From positions 1 to 5,481 of the forward strand of contig CAMCTQ010000088.1 of the NCBI GenBank assembly GCA_945878545.1: a DNA stretch of 5,481 nucleotides, given 5' to 3'. The notes under the pieces are model-generated. The model saw only the letters and a list, made by a program, of their open reading frames with translations. It did not search any database and was not told the DNA's origin. The stretch is from Rickettsia typhi (GTDB lineage: Bacteria; Pseudomonadota; Alphaproteobacteria; Rickettsiales; Rickettsiaceae). Both the position numbers and the translations under genes were made by a program. The number at the start of each line of letters is the position of its first letter. Within the stretch, counting starts at the first letter, position 1. Shown here in pieces: positions 1 to 5,481 of the stretch.

Positions 1-52
1 AAAACAAACACTACTCAAACGTTCACTTGAAATTAAAGAGCTTAACCCAGTC

Positions 53-412
53 TTATTCTGACATAGCAATATTTCTTACTAAGTTAATAATGGCCCGTTT
101 AACAGATTCATCTTTTATTTTAGAAAATTGCTCTATCAAAACGGTTTGAAGTTTAAAATTGGGACAAGCTGTAGATATTGTGTTTTTAAAGATTTGTTCT
201 ACAGGAATCTGGAGCTTGTTTACAATTTTTTCTAAAGTACCAGCAGAGATTCTGTTAGTACCTTTTAGATATTTTTGTATTTGTTGTACTGATAATCCTA
301 GATATTTAGCTAATTCTTTACCAGACACTCCTCTGATTATGCAATAATCATAGGCTAATCTAGAAATTTTTTTGTCTTCTGTAAGAATGCGTCTTATTGG
401 TCGTTTGTTCAT
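53..412 (-). CDS. XRE-family helix-turn-helix transcriptional regulator, 119 aa
   Basis: Probable small cytoplasmic DNA-binding repressor or regulator. The Cro/C1-type helix-turn-helix covers about residues 18-75: 'GVSGKELAKYLGLS' forms the first helix and the turn, 'VQQIQKYLKGTNRIS' is the recognition helix and following loop, and 'LEKIVNKLQIPVEQIF' is the closing helix with the usual 'P..[FI]F' ending. In this subfamily, common in alphaproteobacteria, the glutamine pair and 'QKY..G.NRIS' are hallmarks. Residues 76-119 form a short tail ending in a helix (about 92-116) with an 'IKDESVKRAIINLVRNIA' pattern that I take to be for dimerisation. The ATG at 410-412 is the first start that leaves the domain whole, but no clear Shine-Dalgarno precedes it. 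It lies downstream of a decayed gene on the same strand, so its target is unknown. It looks intact; family assignment is firm, function is not. Confidence 0.88.
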   Translation of the reverse strand: MNKRPIRRILTEDKKISRLAYDYCIIRGVSGKELAKYLGLSVQQIQKYLKGTNRISAGTLEKIVNKLQIPVEQIFKNTISTACPNFKLQTVLIEQFSKIKDESVKRAIINLVRNIAMSE

Positions 413-555
413 GATATTTATTATTATCTGTTAAATTCTGGTTGTAATGCTTATATTAAGTAACTGTAGTTTTTTTCGCTCTACAAAAAGCAATTTTTGC
501 TTAGAGTTCTTGGACTTCTGAGTTCTTATCATATTCAATTTATTAGTAAGTAATT
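413..555. other. Non-coding stretch between XRE gene and P-loop remnant
   Basis: No gene is supported on either strand. The minus strand, in the reading frame of the upstream remnant, stays open for some 40 codons after its first frame's stop, but gives low-complexity lysine- and asparagine-rich sequence with no motif. This part probably includes further decayed sequence of the P-loop gene plus the leader of the XRE gene. A short 6-bp inverted repeat (AAGCAA/TTGCTT, 488-502) is present but too weak to call a terminator. Confidence 0.4.
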
Positions 556-1015
556 CTAGATTCTTAATTTTATTTCCCCATCATCTACTGCAAACAAATG
601 GAACTTGGGCTAAATAATTAACTAGAATACTTTTCTCGCTTCCTGTATTACCAAGCACTAATATTGACCTGTCATACGCTTAATCAAAACTATCCTGATC
701 AGAAAAAACCAAATGAATTATTTCCTGTACGTTATATTTCGAGCTAAATAAGCATAATTTTCTTTTTTTATATTTATATTATTTTTTTTGCTTAGCAAAA
801 AAGTCAGAAATTGTCTCTTTGCATGATTTACTATATTGAGACTCTAATAAAAGTTTATAGAGTACTAGCCGATTCTCCTGACGTTGGTTCGATGTGACAT
901 CAATTTTGTCAACAGGGATATTATGCTTTATGATTCCTTTATTTCTGTTTTTAACATTAGATACGCTATTATAACTGCTGTGTTGAAAACTAGAATTCTC
1001 ATTGATTCCTTTCAT
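556..1015 (-). pseudogene. Decayed P-loop NTPase gene (N-terminal part)
   Basis: One reading frame starting at ATG 1013-1015 runs 78 codons to TAA (779-781), continues in the same frame to a second TAA (680-682), and then reads 'RSILVLGNTGSEKSILVNYL', a P-loop at 629-652 in which the usual GKS has become EKS. About 12 codons later (near 596-598) the frame breaks; after skipping one base it resumes as 'LFAVDDGEIKLRI' and stops at TAG 556-558. The two stops, the G-to-E and probable T-to-I changes in the Walker A region, and the frameshift are all typical of decay, and one stop (TAA, codon 112) is one transition from a glutamine codon. The original was a nucleotide-binding protein with about 115 residues before the P-loop; its family is unknown to me. 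A weak GAGAGG (1028-1033) lies before the ATG. The 78-codon front part could still be translated, but nothing in it suggests a domain. Confidence 0.72.
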
Positions 1016-1082
1016 AGTATCAATTAACCTCTCTAAAAATTATTCATCAATTTAAATACGTTCATAAAAGCTAACACTATAA

Positions 1083-1088
1083 ATTATA
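1083..1088 (-). promoter_or_regulatory. Perfect -10 box facing the P-loop remnant
   Basis: The minus strand reads TATAAT here, about 68 bases before the remnant's ATG. No TTGACA-like -35 is present at 16-18 bp; that position is occupied by one copy of the 9-bp tandem repeat at 1104-1124. This would fit an activator-dependent promoter, but in DNA this AT-rich a TATAAT can arise by chance. Confidence 0.35.
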
Positions 1089-1103
1089 AGTTTCTTCAAA
1101 AAA

Positions 1104-1124
1104 ACTATCCTAGGTACTATCCTA
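1104..1124. repeat. Tandem 9-bp direct repeat, possible operator
   Basis: ACTATCCTA occurs at 1104-1112 and again at 1116-1124, a 12-bp period close to one helical turn. It sits in the space between two divergent genes and overlaps where the -35 of the minus-strand TATAAT at 1083-1088 would fall. Spacing and position suggest a protein-binding site; there is no direct proof. Confidence 0.4.
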
Positions 1125-1215
1125 AGGAAATAACTTGCGGATGAAAAGCATTTACAAATGAGGTAAACAAGTTTAAAGGTTAAGTTTTGATTGATGTCAT
1201 TATTATATTTAAATT

Positions 1216-4200
1216 ATGTTGCTTGATACGAGCTATAAAAAATTACACGAAATATATTCAAATTACCTGAATGAAATAGGAGCGATAAAATTTACTTTTA
1301 AGGAAGTAAGCATAATAGCTTGTCTTCTTCATAACAGAGGGAATAAAAAAATAGCATCTTTGTTGTCTATCTCCCCGAAAACAGTAGAATCCCATATTCA
1401 TAACATAATGTTAAAGCTAGGCCACAATTCGAGAGAATCTATCATAGATTTTGTAGAGAAATCTGGAAAGCTACATCTTATAAAGCGATGTTATTTACAC
1501 TTGTTAGTTCAGGCTTCATTTTATAATCAACTGCAAAAAATAGGCAAAGTTCTAAACCGGCATGGTTGTATTTGTCTATTGCACAGTGGAGGTATAAATA
1601 AACAAGAGGAGAATTTATTAAAGCAGCTGCAAGTACATTTAAAAATAGTGAATATAACTTTAATCAACATAGAAGATAGTGATCAAAATACTAAAAAAGC
1701 CAAGCATAACCTATATGTTTCTTCAAAAGAACTGGTTGATAATCACCAATCACCTGAAAGCATCTTTCTCGTACTTGACAAAAATTCAGAACCCTATGAA
1801 ATTAATCATGTCAGATGTATAGATTTTAGAAAGGAAGAAAATTACTACTTATCCGTATTAGAGTTACTAAAGCAAATTTTAAATGAAACTAACTTGGATA
1901 AAATTATCCAGGAATTTAATACAGAATATAACGCTATTCTAAATAATGTAGAAGAGATAAGTATAAAAAGTAAAAATTACTATCATAATTTCTTGATTAC
2001 CTTTCTATCTAAACTATTTAAAGAAAAGGCATCAAGCATGAAACTTATTATTCTACTAGTATGTTTTAGTTGTTTTATTCTATTTATTTCATTGATTTTT
2101 ATCCAAAGAAATATTATTGCCGATAGAACTACCGATCAACAAGTTGTAAGACCAAATTTTAGTATTCCACATAAGAGCATGAGGCTAGAACGTCCTTACA
2201 TAATGGCTGAGATAAATAACAAATTAAAACATCAAAGCGATATAAAAACTGTCGTTCTTATTGGAATAGGCGGAGCTGGTAAGACTACTATAGCTCGGCA
2301 CTACGCGCTTCAACAAAAAGCTAATATTGTTTGGGAAATCAATGCGGAGACCGAAGATAATCTTATGGTCTCATTTGAGCAGTTGGCATACGCTGCTTCT
2401 CAAACTCAAGAAGAAAGGAATGAATTAAAAGAGATACAAGAAACAAAAGATTTTGATAAGAGGCAAACAAAACTGCTATTATTCGTCAGAAAGCAGCTCA
2501 AATCTTATGCTCCCTGGGTTCTGGTTTATGACAATGTAAAGACCTTTTTAGATATCCAAGCTTATTTTCCTTATGACTCTAAGGCCTGGGGTTCTGGAGA
2601 AGTTATCCTTACAACACGCAATAACAATATTGCAAATAATAGCCATATAGGCAGCAATAAAGGGGTTTTCTTTGGAGAGTTGGAAGCTTCAGAACAATTT
2701 GTCCTTTTTACTAAAGTCTTGGGCGCACAGAGTACAGAGCTTAACCCTAATCTTCAAAAAGAGCAATTTCAATTTTTACAGCACATTCCCCCTTTTCCTT
2801 TAGATGTGTTAACAGCAGCTTTTTATATTAAAGCAACAGGAATTTCTTACAAAGAATATTTAAAACGTAAAGACCGAAGCAGTGAGGAATTTGCTTTAGT
2901 TCAATCAGAGATGATAAAAGAAAATAACACTTATAATAAGAACCGCTATGGGATTATAACATTATCATTGAAACATATTATTGATAAGCATCCTGATTTT
3001 GCTGCCCTTTTATTATTTATAAGTTTATTGGATTCACAAGAAATCCCAAGAGATTTATTAGATTTATATAAGGGAGAAATAGTAGTGGATAGTTTTCTGC
3101 ATAACTTACAACAATATTCTATGATAATTGAAAAAGATTCTATATATCAACAAACTACAGTATTTTCGCTGCACCGCAGTACACAAACCATAATTTTAAA
3201 GTATTTGACAACAGTGCTAAATTTAGAAAAAAACTCTCAATTGATGGAGTCAATTGCAAAAAGTCTTGAAGAATATTTAGAAAAAATATCAGAAACAGCC
3301 GAAGAAGTTCAATTAAAGCATTTTATCCCTCATCTTGTTGCATTCATAGATAAAAAACTGGTTAGTGAAATTACCGAGGCTTATTTAAATAGTAAATTAG
3401 GATATTTTTATTGGACCATATATCGAGATTATAAAGAAGCAACAAACTTGATTGAACAAAGTTTGCCAGTATTTTCAAAGTACTATAAGACTGCGCATCC
3501 ACAAAAAGCATGGGCTTTAGGGCAATTAGGAGTAATTTATAAAAATTCTGGTGATATCAAAAAAGGCAAAAACTATCTTGAAGAAAGTCTGGCTGTATAC
3601 AAAAGTTATTATGGTACTGAAAATCATATTAAAATAGCTTGGATTTTAACACCCCTAGCAAGTATTTATAGAAAAATAGAACCTCAAAAAGCCCAAAATT
3701 ATCTAGAAAGAGCATTATCAATTTATAAAGATTTTTATGGAGAAGACGATATAAAAACTTCAGAAGTATTTGGGCACTTAGGACGTTTTCATAGAAATAT
3801 GGGACATTATGTTAAAGCAAAAGATTTACTTGAGCGAGCTATTCTTATTCAAGACAGTAATTCCGTAAAGAAGCCTATAGAATATGCTTGGTTAACCATT
3901 AATCTAGGAATCGTTTATCGAAATCTAGGTTACAATGAAAAAGCAAAAAAATTATTTGAGCGCGGATTGTCTATTAATGAAAAAACCTTAGGTAAAGAAC
4001 ATATTGACGTAGGTTGGTCACGAATCCATCTTGGTATTATTTATGGTAATCAAGGTAATTTGTTAATGGCAAAGCAGTTGATACAAGAAAGCCTTGAACA
4101 GTATAAACAGCATTATGGCCCTGATCATCCAAAAACGGCGTGGGCTTCAGAAAAGTTAGGAGTTGTTTATAGAGAATTAAGAGAGTATGCAAAGGCTAAT

Positions 4201-4593
4201 GATATACTTAATCAAAGCCTTAACATTTATAGAGAACATTATGGTACAGATTCTGCCCAAGTTGCCATTTTGATGCATAATATAGGAGAAATGAAATTTA
4301 TGGAGGGTAATTTAAAAGAAGCCGAAGAATATTTGCATAAATCTTTTGAAATATTTCAAAATCAAAACCATCCCGAAATTTATAGAGTATTAGGCAGTTT
4401 AATAGATTTGTATCTAAAGAAATCTATTAATGAAAATAATCAAAATAATATTCAACAAGGACAGATTTATCATAATAAAGCTGTCTACTTTCTTAGTGAG
4501 TTGCAACAAATCTTAAAAATTAATTTTCCAGATGATGCTCCTTATGTTAAGAAAATTAATTTAAAATACAGTTATATAGCTAAAAAAATTTAG
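1216..4593 (+). CDS. LuxR-HTH / transmembrane / NB-ARC / TPR STAND-class regulator, 1125 aa
   Basis: Likely a signal-transducing ATPase of the STAND class. Residues 25-82 are a LuxR/GerE DNA-binding domain, with 'KKIASLLSISPKTVESHIHN' as the turn and recognition helix. Residues 85-235 are an unassigned alternating strand/helix region. Residues 277-296 form a strongly hydrophobic segment with lysines before it (K266, K269, K271, K276). Residues about 320-560 are NB-ARC: Walker A GIGGAGKTT (350-358), Walker B WVLVYDN (434-440, D439), sensor-type ILTTR (464-468, R468) and a GLPL-like PPFPLD (525-530). A winged-helix part follows (about 575-665) with LHR (652-654) at the place of the MHD histidine. 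Residues 722-1056 hold eight TPRs; 1057-1125 is a helical tail. In this class the TPRs sense a ligand or partner and ATP-driven oligomerisation activates the output, here probably DNA binding. ATG 1216 follows an in-frame TAA (1210-1212) directly and is the only ATG before the HTH; no Shine-Dalgarno is visible. The frame is intact with no missing key residue. The natural ligand and target genes are unknown. Confidence 0.9.
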   Translation: MLLDTSYKKLHEIYSNYLNEIGAIKFTFKEVSIIACLLHNRGNKKIASLLSISPKTVESHIHNIMLKLGHNSRESIIDFVEKSGKLHLIKRCYLHLLVQASFYNQLQKIGKVLNRHGCICLLHSGGINKQEENLLKQLQVHLKIVNITLINIEDSDQNTKKAKHNLYVSSKELVDNHQSPESIFLVLDKNSEPYEINHVRCIDFRKEENYYLSVLELLKQILNETNLDKIIQEFNTEYNAILNNVEEISIKSKNYYHNFLITFLSKLFKEKASSMKLIILLVCFSCFILFISLIFIQRNIIADRTTDQQVVRPNFSIPHKSMRLERPYIMAEINNKLKHQSDIKTVVLIGIGGAGKTTIARHYALQQKANIVWEINAETEDNLMVSFEQLAYAASQTQEERNELKEIQETKDFDKRQTKLLLFVRKQLKSYAPWVLVYDNVKTFLDIQAYFPYDSKAWGSGEVILTTRNNNIANNSHIGSNKGVFFGELEASEQFVLFTKVLGAQSTELNPNLQKEQFQFLQHIPPFPLDVLTAAFYIKATGISYKEYLKRKDRSSEEFALVQSEMIKENNTYNKNRYGIITLSLKHIIDKHPDFAALLLFISLLDSQEIPRDLLDLYKGEIVVDSFLHNLQQYSMIIEKDSIYQQTTVFSLHRSTQTIILKYLTTVLNLEKNSQLMESIAKSLEEYLEKISETAEEVQLKHFIPHLVAFIDKKLVSEITEAYLNSKLGYFYWTIYRDYKEATNLIEQSLPVFSKYYKTAHPQKAWALGQLGVIYKNSGDIKKGKNYLEESLAVYKSYYGTENHIKIAWILTPLASIYRKIEPQKAQNYLERALSIYKDFYGEDDIKTSEVFGHLGRFHRNMGHYVKAKDLLERAILIQDSNSVKKPIEYAWLTINLGIVYRNLGYNEKAKKLFERGLSINEKTLGKEHIDVGWSRIHLGIIYGNQGNLLMAKQLIQESLEQYKQHYGPDHPKTAWASEKLGVVYRELREYAKANDILNQSLNIYREHYGTDSAQVAILMHNIGEMKFMEGNLKEAEEYLHKSFEIFQNQNHPEIYRVLGSLIDLYLKKSINENNQNNIQQGQIYHNKAVYFLSELQQILKINFPDDAPYVKKINLKYSYIAKKI
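2044..2103 (+). other. Predicted transmembrane segment inside the NB-ARC/TPR protein
   Basis: Codons 277-296 encode an uninterrupted run of Leu, Ile, Val, Phe, Cys and Ser with no charged residue, flanked by K276 on one side and QRN on the other. About 20 residues is enough to span a membrane. A second, shorter amphipathic stretch (about 255-268, with FLITFLSKLF) precedes it and might pair with it as a hairpin. Positive charges favour the N-terminal HTH side as cytoplasmic. Confidence 0.7.
3379..4383 (+). repeat. Eight tandem TPR units (kinesin-light-chain type) within the STAND protein
   Basis: The 'LG.[IV]Y' position recurs at residues 728, 771, 814, 855, 897, 939, 981 and 1023, giving spacings of 43, 43, 41, 42, 42, 42 and 42. 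Each unit carries 'A..[YL]L...L.I' in its second helix and several end in a [YF]YG or HYG turn before the next first helix. The 42-residue period is that of the TPR class often joined to NB-ARC ATPases, longer than the classic 34. Five units carry a tryptophan exactly five residues before this position. Confidence 0.9.
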
Positions 4594-4698
4594 TTATCAG
4601 TAGATCTATGCAGTTACTCTCTCAGCGCACATAGACTTTCTTGATCCAAGATAAGTAATTTTTAAATTATGTGTAGCTGAGTTATTCTAGGTCGTTAA

Positions 4699-4994
4699 TT
4701 AAAATTCTAAGTTTATCATTTCTTCAGCTAAAGCCAAATAATCTTGGGGTGATAGATTTTCGGCACGCAAGGTATCTGTAATAGAAAGTTTTGTTAATAC
4801 GAAACCGATCTCTGAAGATAATGATTTCAAAGAGGATTTGATCATTTTCCGACGACCAGAAAAAGTAATATTCGTAATTTCCTCGATTTTTGACAGTAAA
4901 TAGGCACTGGTTTTCTTTTGATACAAAAAATAACAAATTTGTTAACTATTTCTGAAGGCAAAAATCCTAAAGCTGATTGTGAAAGAATAGTGGG
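4699..4994 (-). pseudogene. rsmA: C-terminal remnant of 16S rRNA dimethyladenosine transferase, frameshifted
   Basis: The intact enzyme (RsmA, also KsgA) dimethylates two adjacent adenines in the 3'-terminal hairpin of 16S rRNA and is normally about 270 residues. Only its end is left here. The frame ending at TAA 4699-4701 reads [20 protein letters not shown], then SSLKSL, then [18 protein letters not shown], matching the family's '[FT]..RRK..[RK].[SA]L..L' and 'RAE.[LI]S...Y..[LM]A' signatures. Upstream, the second reading frame (about 4902-4979) gives [19 protein letters not shown], resembling the preceding 'F.P.PKV.SAV[VI]' segment, so a frameshift lies near 4890-4912. The S-adenosylmethionine-binding two thirds are absent: a stop (4995-4997) closes the upstream frame and no motif-I sequence is seen before the next gene. 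A functional copy presumably exists elsewhere. The tail assignment is strong; the upstream segment is less certain. Confidence 0.8.
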
Positions 4995-5010
4995 TTAAAC
5001 TAGGCAAGGG

Positions 5011-5033
5011 TGCAAAATAAAAGTTTTGTTGCA
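5011..5033. promoter_or_regulatory. Imperfect inverted repeat over the -35 region
   Basis: The stretch begins TGCAA and ends TTGCA, with 8 of 11 symmetric positions complementary. It overlaps the TTGCAT -35 of the promoter at 5029-5057, so it could be an operator. It is followed by five T (5034-5038) and might instead act as a weak terminator. Low GC makes either reading tentative. Confidence 0.3.
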
Positions 5034-5057
5034 TTTTTAGTTAATATAAATTAATAT
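5029..5057 (+). promoter_or_regulatory. Sigma-70-type promoter for the gene at 5091
   Basis: TTGCAT (5029-5034) and TAATAT (5052-5057) are separated by exactly 17 bp, close to the TTGACA/TATAAT consensus. The start of transcription would fall near 5064, leaving a leader of about 26 bases that contains the ribosome binding site AAGGAA (5077-5082), 8 bases before the ATG. Confidence 0.6.
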
Positions 5058-5090
5058 TGCTCGGCTGAATCATATCAAGGAATAGTTACT

Positions 5091-5481
5091 ATGTCCAAAC
5101 CATCACAAAAGTTAGAAATTTTAGAAGAAAAAGCAATATTTAAAGAATTAGTAGAGGAGCAACAGCCGCAAGCCCCTACAAAGGTTAGTAATATAACCAC
5201 AATTTTAGGATGGGCTTCAAACACTTTTAATAATTTCTTCAAATTGCCTCAAAATACTCCTATCAATAAATTATTTCCTCTACCTTTTAATAAAGGGCAA
5301 GCTATTTTTAATAAATATGCTACAGAGTTTTTACAAAATTCAGAAGTTAATCAGCGCATTTTTATCAATAAATTATTTGCTTTGCCTCCCAAAACATTGC
5401 AACCTATTCTTGAAGTGTATACTGCTGAGGTGGTTAAAAGCTTAAGTAATAATCAATTTATTTTTTTTAGTTATTTATGTG
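5091..5481 (+). CDS. Hypothetical repeat protein, 5' part (right end cut by window)
   Basis: An open frame of 130 codons runs from ATG 5091 off the right edge. The start is well supported: AAGGAA at 5077-5082 with 8-base spacing, and a 17-bp-spaced promoter upstream. Residues 1-25 are charged and probably helical (KLEILEEKAIFKELVEEQQ); no signal peptide is seen. Residues 58-91 and 92-125 are two copies of a 34-residue repeat, each starting INKLF.LP and ending NQ.IF, with 15 identical positions. A shorter echo, FNNFFKLP, lies at 46-53. I recognise no family. The repeat length recalls classic TPR or PPR, but the INKLF.LP start fits neither well. A tract of eight T at 5461-5468 falls at the end of the second repeat, and one added or lost base there would change the frame. 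It may be a secreted or scaffold repeat protein, but this is a guess. Confidence 0.75.
   Translation, partial: MSKPSQKLEILEEKAIFKELVEEQQPQAPTKVSNITTILGWASNTFNNFFKLPQNTPINKLFPLPFNKGQAIFNKYATEFLQNSEVNQRIFINKLFALPPKTLQPILEVYTAEVVKSLSNNQFIFFSYLC
5262..5465 (+). repeat. Two tandem 102-bp coding repeats
   Basis: Two adjacent in-frame units, 5262-5363 and 5364-5465, share an exact 15-base start (ATCAATAAATTATTT) and encode 34-residue units with 15 of 34 identical residues. The conserved positions are I1 N2 K3 L4 F5, L7 P8, Q13, I15, Y19, E22, N30 Q31, I33 F34. Divergence elsewhere shows that the duplication is old and that the protein pattern, not the DNA, has been kept. More units may lie beyond the window. 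Confidence 0.75.

Follow-up and report, generated by a model that had tools for sequence, protein, structure and literature searches.

A family of LuxR-type regulators with a predicted membrane helix and a putatively extracytoplasmic NB-ARC-TPR sensor

A 5,481-nucleotide stretch of DNA from Rickettsia typhi (assembly GCA_945878545.1, contig CAMCTQ010000088.1, positions 1 to 5,481; this whole stretch is called the window) carries on its forward strand, at 1216..4593, a gene for a 1125-residue regulator. Its product joins a LuxR-type helix-turn-helix (HTH), a TIR-like domain, a predicted membrane helix, an NB-ARC ATPase and tetratricopeptide repeats (TPRs). Our interpretation is a transmembrane one-component regulator of the ToxR kind, whose STAND sensor would lie outside the cytoplasm and be supplied with ATP by the host. 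In the proposed arrangement, to which we assign a probability of about 0.5, the protein passes the membrane once, with the HTH and the TIR-like domain in the cytoplasm and the NB-ARC ATPase and TPRs in the periplasm, switching on host-derived ATP. STAND ATPases are taken as cytoplasmic, and a family with its ATPase outside, if true, would break that assumption and offer uncultured intracellular symbionts a candidate route to sense the host-cell interior and alter gene expression.

The layout was derived from the open reading frame, Pfam matches and an AlphaFold2 model computed on a 63-row alignment (mean pLDDT 86.0, pTM 0.63); all features lie on the forward strand. The LuxR/GerE HTH occupies residues 26-79 (1291..1452; PF00196, E 1.3e-11, 44.4 bits against a cut-off of 23.5). 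In the model, it is followed by a long helix (86-113) and a five-stranded alpha/beta domain at residues ~118-222 (1567..1881), which is poorly conserved in sequence and has a TIR/SEFIR- or receiver-like fold. A linker with pLDDT below 50 (247-275), which overlaps the basic flank described below (262-276, 1999..2043), leads to a single unbroken helix at residues 275-303 (2038..2124). This helix is predicted with moderate confidence (block pLDDT 50, 73, 66), and a second weak stretch (301-307), also below 50, follows it. The NB-ARC domain (residues 330-523, 2203..2784; PF00931, E 5.1e-10, 39.5 bits against a cut-off of 23.5) contains the P-loop GIGGAGKTT at 350-358 and Walker B at ~434-440, with GxP (525-530) and an MHD-like H653 lying C-terminal to it. 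The PF00931 match and the motif counts in 118 aligned rows indicated that Walker A, Walker B and the later NB-ARC motifs are all present. The TPR array spans residues 718-1103 (3367..4524; PF13424 and others, TPR_12 at E 3.7e-52) and has nine predicted helical hairpins; the Pfam TPR matches extend over the last 400 residues. In a Foldseek search with the whole model, the top PDB match (E 3.7e-13) was 6mfv, which is a STAND protein sensing through TPRs. An earlier reading of this DNA by a model from the letters alone (the sequence-only reading) had placed a LuxR-type HTH, a hydrophobic segment at 277-296 and a complete NB-ARC in one chain with eight TPRs. The domain matches, the hydrophobic maximum at 278-296 and the nine hairpins, consistent with about eight repeats, bear this out.

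The residues 278-296 have a mean Kyte-Doolittle value of 3.21 and form the only peak at or above 1.6 in the whole chain; the hydrophobic core was set at 277-296. To follow this segment through the family, relatives were collected by a protein search, which matched 240 proteins (the best 120 of the 240 were used; among them are P0001 and P0003, which over 99-100% of their length share 84% and 78% identity with the window protein). When residues 1-276 alone served as query, 68 proteins matched, 32 of them new. The test set contained 153 proteins (the window protein and P0001-P0152), and after removal of 11 without a P-loop and 6 with fewer than 400 residues beyond it, 136 remained. A segment was counted when a 19-residue mean of at least 1.6 was located 115 to 35 residues ahead of the P-loop. 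It was found in 129 of the 136 relatives and in one of 110 NB-ARC-TPR controls, which were the best 120 listed proteins of a cyanobacterial relative less 10 whose P-loop lies too near the N-terminus. In fetched genome regions, all 40 open reading frames (ORFs) that passed an HTH and P-loop pattern had the segment, one of them (L159) being almost identical to P0018. The uncharged core is 19-25 residues long in 115 sequences, and the mean frequency of the most common residue is 0.33 in the segment versus 0.72 in the HTH and 0.60 in NB-ARC. Hydrophobicity and length are kept and sequence is not; the segment therefore acts like a membrane span and not like a buried core. This is also the outcome of the homologue search that the sequence-only reading had proposed for 277-296. 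Judged by these predictions, the membrane segment is a trait of the whole family, which supports the earlier idea of a membrane-tethered regulator. The suggestions of a hairpin, a re-entrant loop or a buried core were not supported, since the model has a continuous, free-standing helix with a 19-25-residue uncharged core.

Of the parts measured, the HTH is the best conserved. In 118 rows, F26, T27, E30, A47, T56, H60, N63 and K67 each occur in at least 110, and position 29 is R in 111 rows and K in the window protein. Within NB-ARC, G350, G353, G355 and K356 are found in 118 of 118 rows, P528 in 118, H653 in 115, D439 in 104 (N in the other 14) and R468 in 76. As a separate observation, one regulator (L009, genome G008) has a weak HTH match (20.9 bits, cut-off 23.5) and no clear helix at the usual site, in a genome with no match to the Tlc translocase discussed below. 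The conservation of the HTH speaks against a membrane-associated anti-phage STAND protein with a vestigial HTH, a defence role that had also been proposed from the letters and that we consider very improbable. STAND proteins with sensor repeats do act in defence, and the PADLOC model VakA matched the regulator (E 5.7e-4). That match covers just ~70 residues around the P-loop (345-414) with 18.5 bits, and no PADLOC model matched over the whole regulator. Viral contigs gave 229 pattern matches, none of which was a relative.

The HTH-middle-helix module occurs also with other C-terminal parts. Eight proteins (P0122, P0123, P0128-P0133), each with the segment, carry it ahead of helical TPR-like regions that have no NB-ARC, and P0140 has it ahead of another ATPase with TPRs. 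In the Rickettsia relatives L012 and L063-L066 the module precedes a different NB-ARC, followed in L012 by DUF7779. In addition, the HTH module of P0142 was seen in the same chain as a transporter-like Vut_1 domain. Exchange of C-terminal parts in this modular way is typical of one-component receptors. A separable HTH module could also serve regulated proteolysis, in which an outside signal would lead to a cut in or near the helix and free the HTH-TIR-like part into the cytoplasm; the long low-confidence linker 247-275, which lies N-terminal to the helix and thus on its predicted cytoplasmic side, would fit this. That linker, however, is not conserved (mean top-residue frequency 0.33), and we regard release by cleavage as improbable.

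The charges at the borders of the helix indicate its direction. In the 129 relatives with the segment, the 10 residues ahead of the core contain 34.3% K+R and 4.3% D+E, and the 10 residues past it 18.4% and 10.4%, against a background of 13.1% and 11.7%. Counted per protein, K+R is higher on the N-terminal flank in 105 cases, higher on the C-terminal flank in 10 and equal in 14 (sign test, p 4e-21), and the K+R peak is confined to the helix border. Because of this basic N-terminal flank, the positive-inside rule places the HTH in the cytoplasm and NB-ARC-TPR outside it. The HTH, whose residues are conserved, has to be inside in any case to function. These sequence features suggest that the HTH is likely inside and NB-ARC-TPR outside, and an intact nucleotide site would then lie outside the cytoplasm. 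The sequence-only reading had held that neither domain works outside the cytoplasm. For the HTH this stands; for the ATPase the premise is called into question by the charge bias and by exported-looking NB-ARC-like neighbours. Its list of options thus omitted the simplest one, that the ATPase is truly outside.

These neighbours came to light at a locus (L010) where the regulator gene adjoins the gene for P0273, a protein of 1344 residues. It combines a start resembling a signal peptide with kinase-like motifs, a P-loop part that contains DUF7779, and Sel1 repeats. A search through 42 genomes of one order and another 11 genomes found seven proteins that have kinase-like motifs plus the P-loop part, P0273 included. 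Six of the seven adjoin a regulator gene, and the seventh (L126) fills a 4.6-kb contig. An eighth match (G040:C96), covering residues 125-494 only at a contig edge, was excluded. The partner lies on the same strand as the regulator at L121, L122, L124, L125 and L129 and is convergent at L123. The gap between an intact regulator and its partner is at most ~70 bases; at L129 the regulator is broken in two, and its nearer piece ends ~160 bases from the partner. All seven proteins start with a hydrophobic stretch, which is followed by xxA|ME in six, and GMGGxGKT and YDNV are kept in all seven. DUF7779 scored above the Pfam cut-off in the five partners scanned, and together with GMGGxGKT and YDNV it is the reason for the label NB-ARC-like. 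The kinase part is presumed by us from the motifs GDA[HQ]xxN and ID..GDPAED in the alignment of the seven. No kinase Pfam family matched P0273 at 1e-3, and PF02958 (EcKL) gave 20.5, 18.0 and 13.5 bits, below the cut-off of 22, in three of four partners scanned and is not among the matches listed for the fourth. In a PDB profile search with the partners, the best 60 of 66 matches were to their Sel1 repeats, to further repeats of TPR type and to a short AfsR stretch, with no kinase among these 60.

A wider group of 18 NB-ARC-like ORFs was compared in the fetched regions; a 728-residue ORF with another kind of P-loop (L138) was left out of it. An N-terminal 12-residue stretch of at least 1.6 was found in 15 of the 18. 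The exceptions are L136 (1.42), L131 (1.13) and L134, whose first methionine lies beyond the P-loop, so that its start is not assessable. Six regulators in the same comparison had a maximum of 1.47, none reaching 1.6. In a tree of 74 tips, the paired regulators fall at three distinct positions. Judging from their starts and motifs, export-bound NB-ARC-like proteins seem to exist in these bacteria, six of them tied to the regulator family, and this evidence is independent of the charge argument. Three further observations concern gene surroundings. Genomes G004 and G039 encode NB-ARC-like proteins whose starts resemble signal peptides and end in xxA|MD or xxA|ME (L130, L132, L133, L135-L138), in fetched regions where no regulator passed the pattern. 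In Caedibacter sp. 38-128 (G002; L002, L178), three regulator paralogues are clustered with two related lipoprotein-like genes alongside. A regulator on the Ca. Megaera plasmid CP113872.1 (L086) lies amid envelope-type genes: Pal, a porin family, BON-domain proteins and a ferritin-like protein.

The family is spread over several genomes related to known intracellular symbionts, and the known members of such lineages live amid host ATP. A scan of genome contigs gave at least 14 loci, one matching solely in the TPR part. The carriers include Caedibacter sp. 38-128, Ca. Paracaedibacter symbiosus and two Rickettsia endosymbionts, of which one has just a short piece. Alphaproteobacterial metagenome-assembled genomes (MAGs), a Flavobacteriales MAG and, with a TPR match only, one actinobacterium also belong to them. 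The Flavobacteriales MAG (L006 / G005; 5.5 Mb), which is possibly a mixed bin, has nine matches and no Tlc match. Of the plasmid records, the three best are those of Ca. Megaera polyxenophila from the culture of a ciliate; in one of them the gene is in pieces, and in another the match covers the protein from residue 436 only. In one order, the family profile matched 24 of 42 genomes, and in 18 of the 24 a listed match reaches the HTH. In an even draw over the class, with two candidates scored per genome, 13 of 337 genomes matched, 11 of them reaching the HTH among the listed matches; in the order of a Rickettsia relative, 11 of 131 genomes matched at 1e-40, and 6 of those reach the HTH. Single genomes have up to 14 profile matches, some of which are broken genes or pieces of one gene. 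With this number and the 240 proteins matched, the combination cannot be called rare, as the sequence-only reading had thought it to be.

In the class-wide draw, the ATP/ADP translocase family Tlc (PF03219) was found in 12 of the 13 profile-positive genomes versus 28 of the 324 negative ones (Fisher p 2e-11). The ATP carrier sits in the inner membrane, so that ATP would cross the periplasm during import. According to passages of PMC4198247, this translocase imports host ATP and is a hallmark shared by many bacteria with an obligate intracellular life. The class-level link may reflect common descent, and lineage explains it equally well.

Several results weigh against the proposed arrangement. 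Within the order, Tlc is no more frequent with the profile than without it (20 of 24 versus 15 of 18, Fisher p 1.0; 16 of 18 versus 19 of 24 when HTH-reaching matches only are counted). The profile-positive genomes G023, G032, G478 and G005 have no Tlc match, nor do G026 and G008, in which the profile matches begin past the HTH; many of these are drafts. The window has no exported NB-ARC-like partner, its next same-strand gene starting from 5091 without a signal-like start. A crude signal-peptide rule called two of the five partners of intact regulators (L123, L124), the rest being judged by hydrophobicity and by eye, and NB-ARC exceeded the Pfam cut-off in one of five scanned partners (L124). 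Among neighbours in general, exported proteins are not enriched (20 of 72 adjacent versus 65 of 212 farther, p 0.77; 49 regions, with 11 that had no gene passing the regulator pattern left out). Cysteine depletion as a sign of outside location was dropped, as the NB-ARC-TPR controls are cysteine-poor too: the C-terminal part has 0.63% in relatives versus 0.72% in controls, two sets that also differ in base composition, and the window protein has no cysteine C-terminal to the helix. Cysteine content that hardly differs from controls gives no support for an oxidising compartment. Finally, NB-ARC proteins are not known outside the cytoplasm.

The same results, in part, fit a membrane-attached cytoplasmic STAND regulator, in which the helix would be an anchor (a surface helix or re-entrant loop) and the HTH and NB-ARC-TPR would both be cytoplasmic. 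Intact NB-ARC motifs are easiest to understand with cytoplasmic ATP, and the cysteine content is like that of soluble controls. Seven of the 136 relatives, and likewise the regulator L003, fall below the hydrophobicity threshold and lack a strong segment, and the charge bias is weak in 14 fusions and Rickettsia relatives (15-residue flanks: N-terminal excess in 8, equal in 5, C-terminal excess in 1). Nevertheless, we consider the anchor unlikely: the continuous predicted helix of 29 residues, with its uncharged core of 19-25, has the length of one full crossing, the charge bias of the main family is strongly one-sided, and the linked NB-ARC-like genes have signal-peptide-like starts.

If NB-ARC-TPR is outside, a mechanism can be proposed from known STAND ATPases such as MalT and plant NLRs, in which ligand-driven ADP/ATP exchange is followed by oligomerisation. 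A ligand bound by the TPRs would let the periplasmic NB-ARC swap ADP for ATP supplied by the host and oligomerise. Clustering outside would pull the helices together and, on the cytoplasmic side, the TIR-like and HTH domains with them; the GerE domains, joined as dimers or larger oligomers, could then bind a promoter. At the paired loci, the adjacent gene would be a candidate target or co-receptor. The many paralogues per genome suggest many ligands. More tentatively, intracellular bacteria may have moved NLR-type STAND signalling out of their own cytoplasm. The regulators that span the membrane, and the exported kinase-NB-ARC-repeat proteins linked to them, would use host ATP in the periplasm or in the host to sense host molecules and pass the signal on to the DNA of the symbiont, as a mirror image of a Toll-like receptor. 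We consider this somewhat less likely than not.

The remaining features of the window were also inspected. On the reverse strand, 53-412 encodes a 119-residue Cro/C1-type HTH protein, whose best NCBIfam match, Wmk (38.2 of 300 bits), most likely reflects the shared HTH only. A 78-residue ORF at 779-1015, also on the reverse strand and divergent from the regulator, has no Pfam match at 1e-3. At 4699-4926 (reverse strand) there is a C-terminal piece of rsmA/ksgA, covering positions 189-255 of 256 of TIGR00755 only, with 36.9 of 171 bits; it looks like a remnant because its frame has 75 residues. The forward-strand ORF at 5091-5480 is open at the window edge, contains INKLF.LP twice, 34 residues apart, and has no Pfam match at 1e-3. 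Scanning the window for DNA repeats gave nothing relevant to the regulator.

Among known systems, the MalT-like (LAL) proteins share with the regulator a LuxR HTH, a STAND ATPase and a TPR-like sensor, and are activated via oligomerisation. Their HTH is C-terminal and they have no membrane helix, whereas the HTH here lies at residues 26-79 and a helix is predicted; the sequence-only reading had drawn this contrast correctly. AfsR-type proteins are actinobacterial and follow the order DNA-binding domain, NB-ARC and TPR without a membrane segment. Compared by domain order, the AfsR type is a closer layout than MalT, and the family profile matches the TPR region of two AfsR chains, 8k60 and 8jke; NF053617 likewise matches the regulator in its TPR part only (37.7 of 1430 bits). 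Unlike AfsR/SARP proteins, the regulator has GerE in place of the N-terminal SARP domain and, in addition, the predicted helix. The FxSxx-COOH TPR proteins (FxsT) and the cyanobacterial NB-ARC-TPR proteins have the same NB-ARC-TPR core (NF040586, E 1e-53, 183 of 300 bits, matching best within the TPRs) and differ in having no membrane segment ahead of the P-loop, apart from the single case among the 110 controls. In the case of NLR-like TIR-NB-ARC-repeat proteins, a TIR-like fold also precedes NB-ARC; in the regulator, that fold shows poor conservation, is joined to an HTH and is split from NB-ARC by the predicted membrane helix.

The architecture HTH-helix-NB-ARC-TPR appeared in no title or abstract beginning among the literature matches listed. 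Transmembrane transcription regulators (TTRs) are defined in the survey PMC10269533 by a DNA-binding domain and at least one transmembrane region in the same chain. The regulator has the DNA-binding domain, by its GerE match above the cut-off, and the transmembrane region by prediction. In the main text of that survey, the words LuxR, GerE, NB-ARC and tetratricopeptide do not occur. Like the ToxR/CadC-like TTRs, the regulator combines a DNA-binding domain, one predicted membrane helix and a C-terminal sensor in a single chain and would bind DNA from the membrane. It differs from them in its GerE/LuxR HTH, no OmpR/ToxR-type winged helix being among its Pfam matches, and in a sensor that consists of an NB-ARC ATPase with TPRs.

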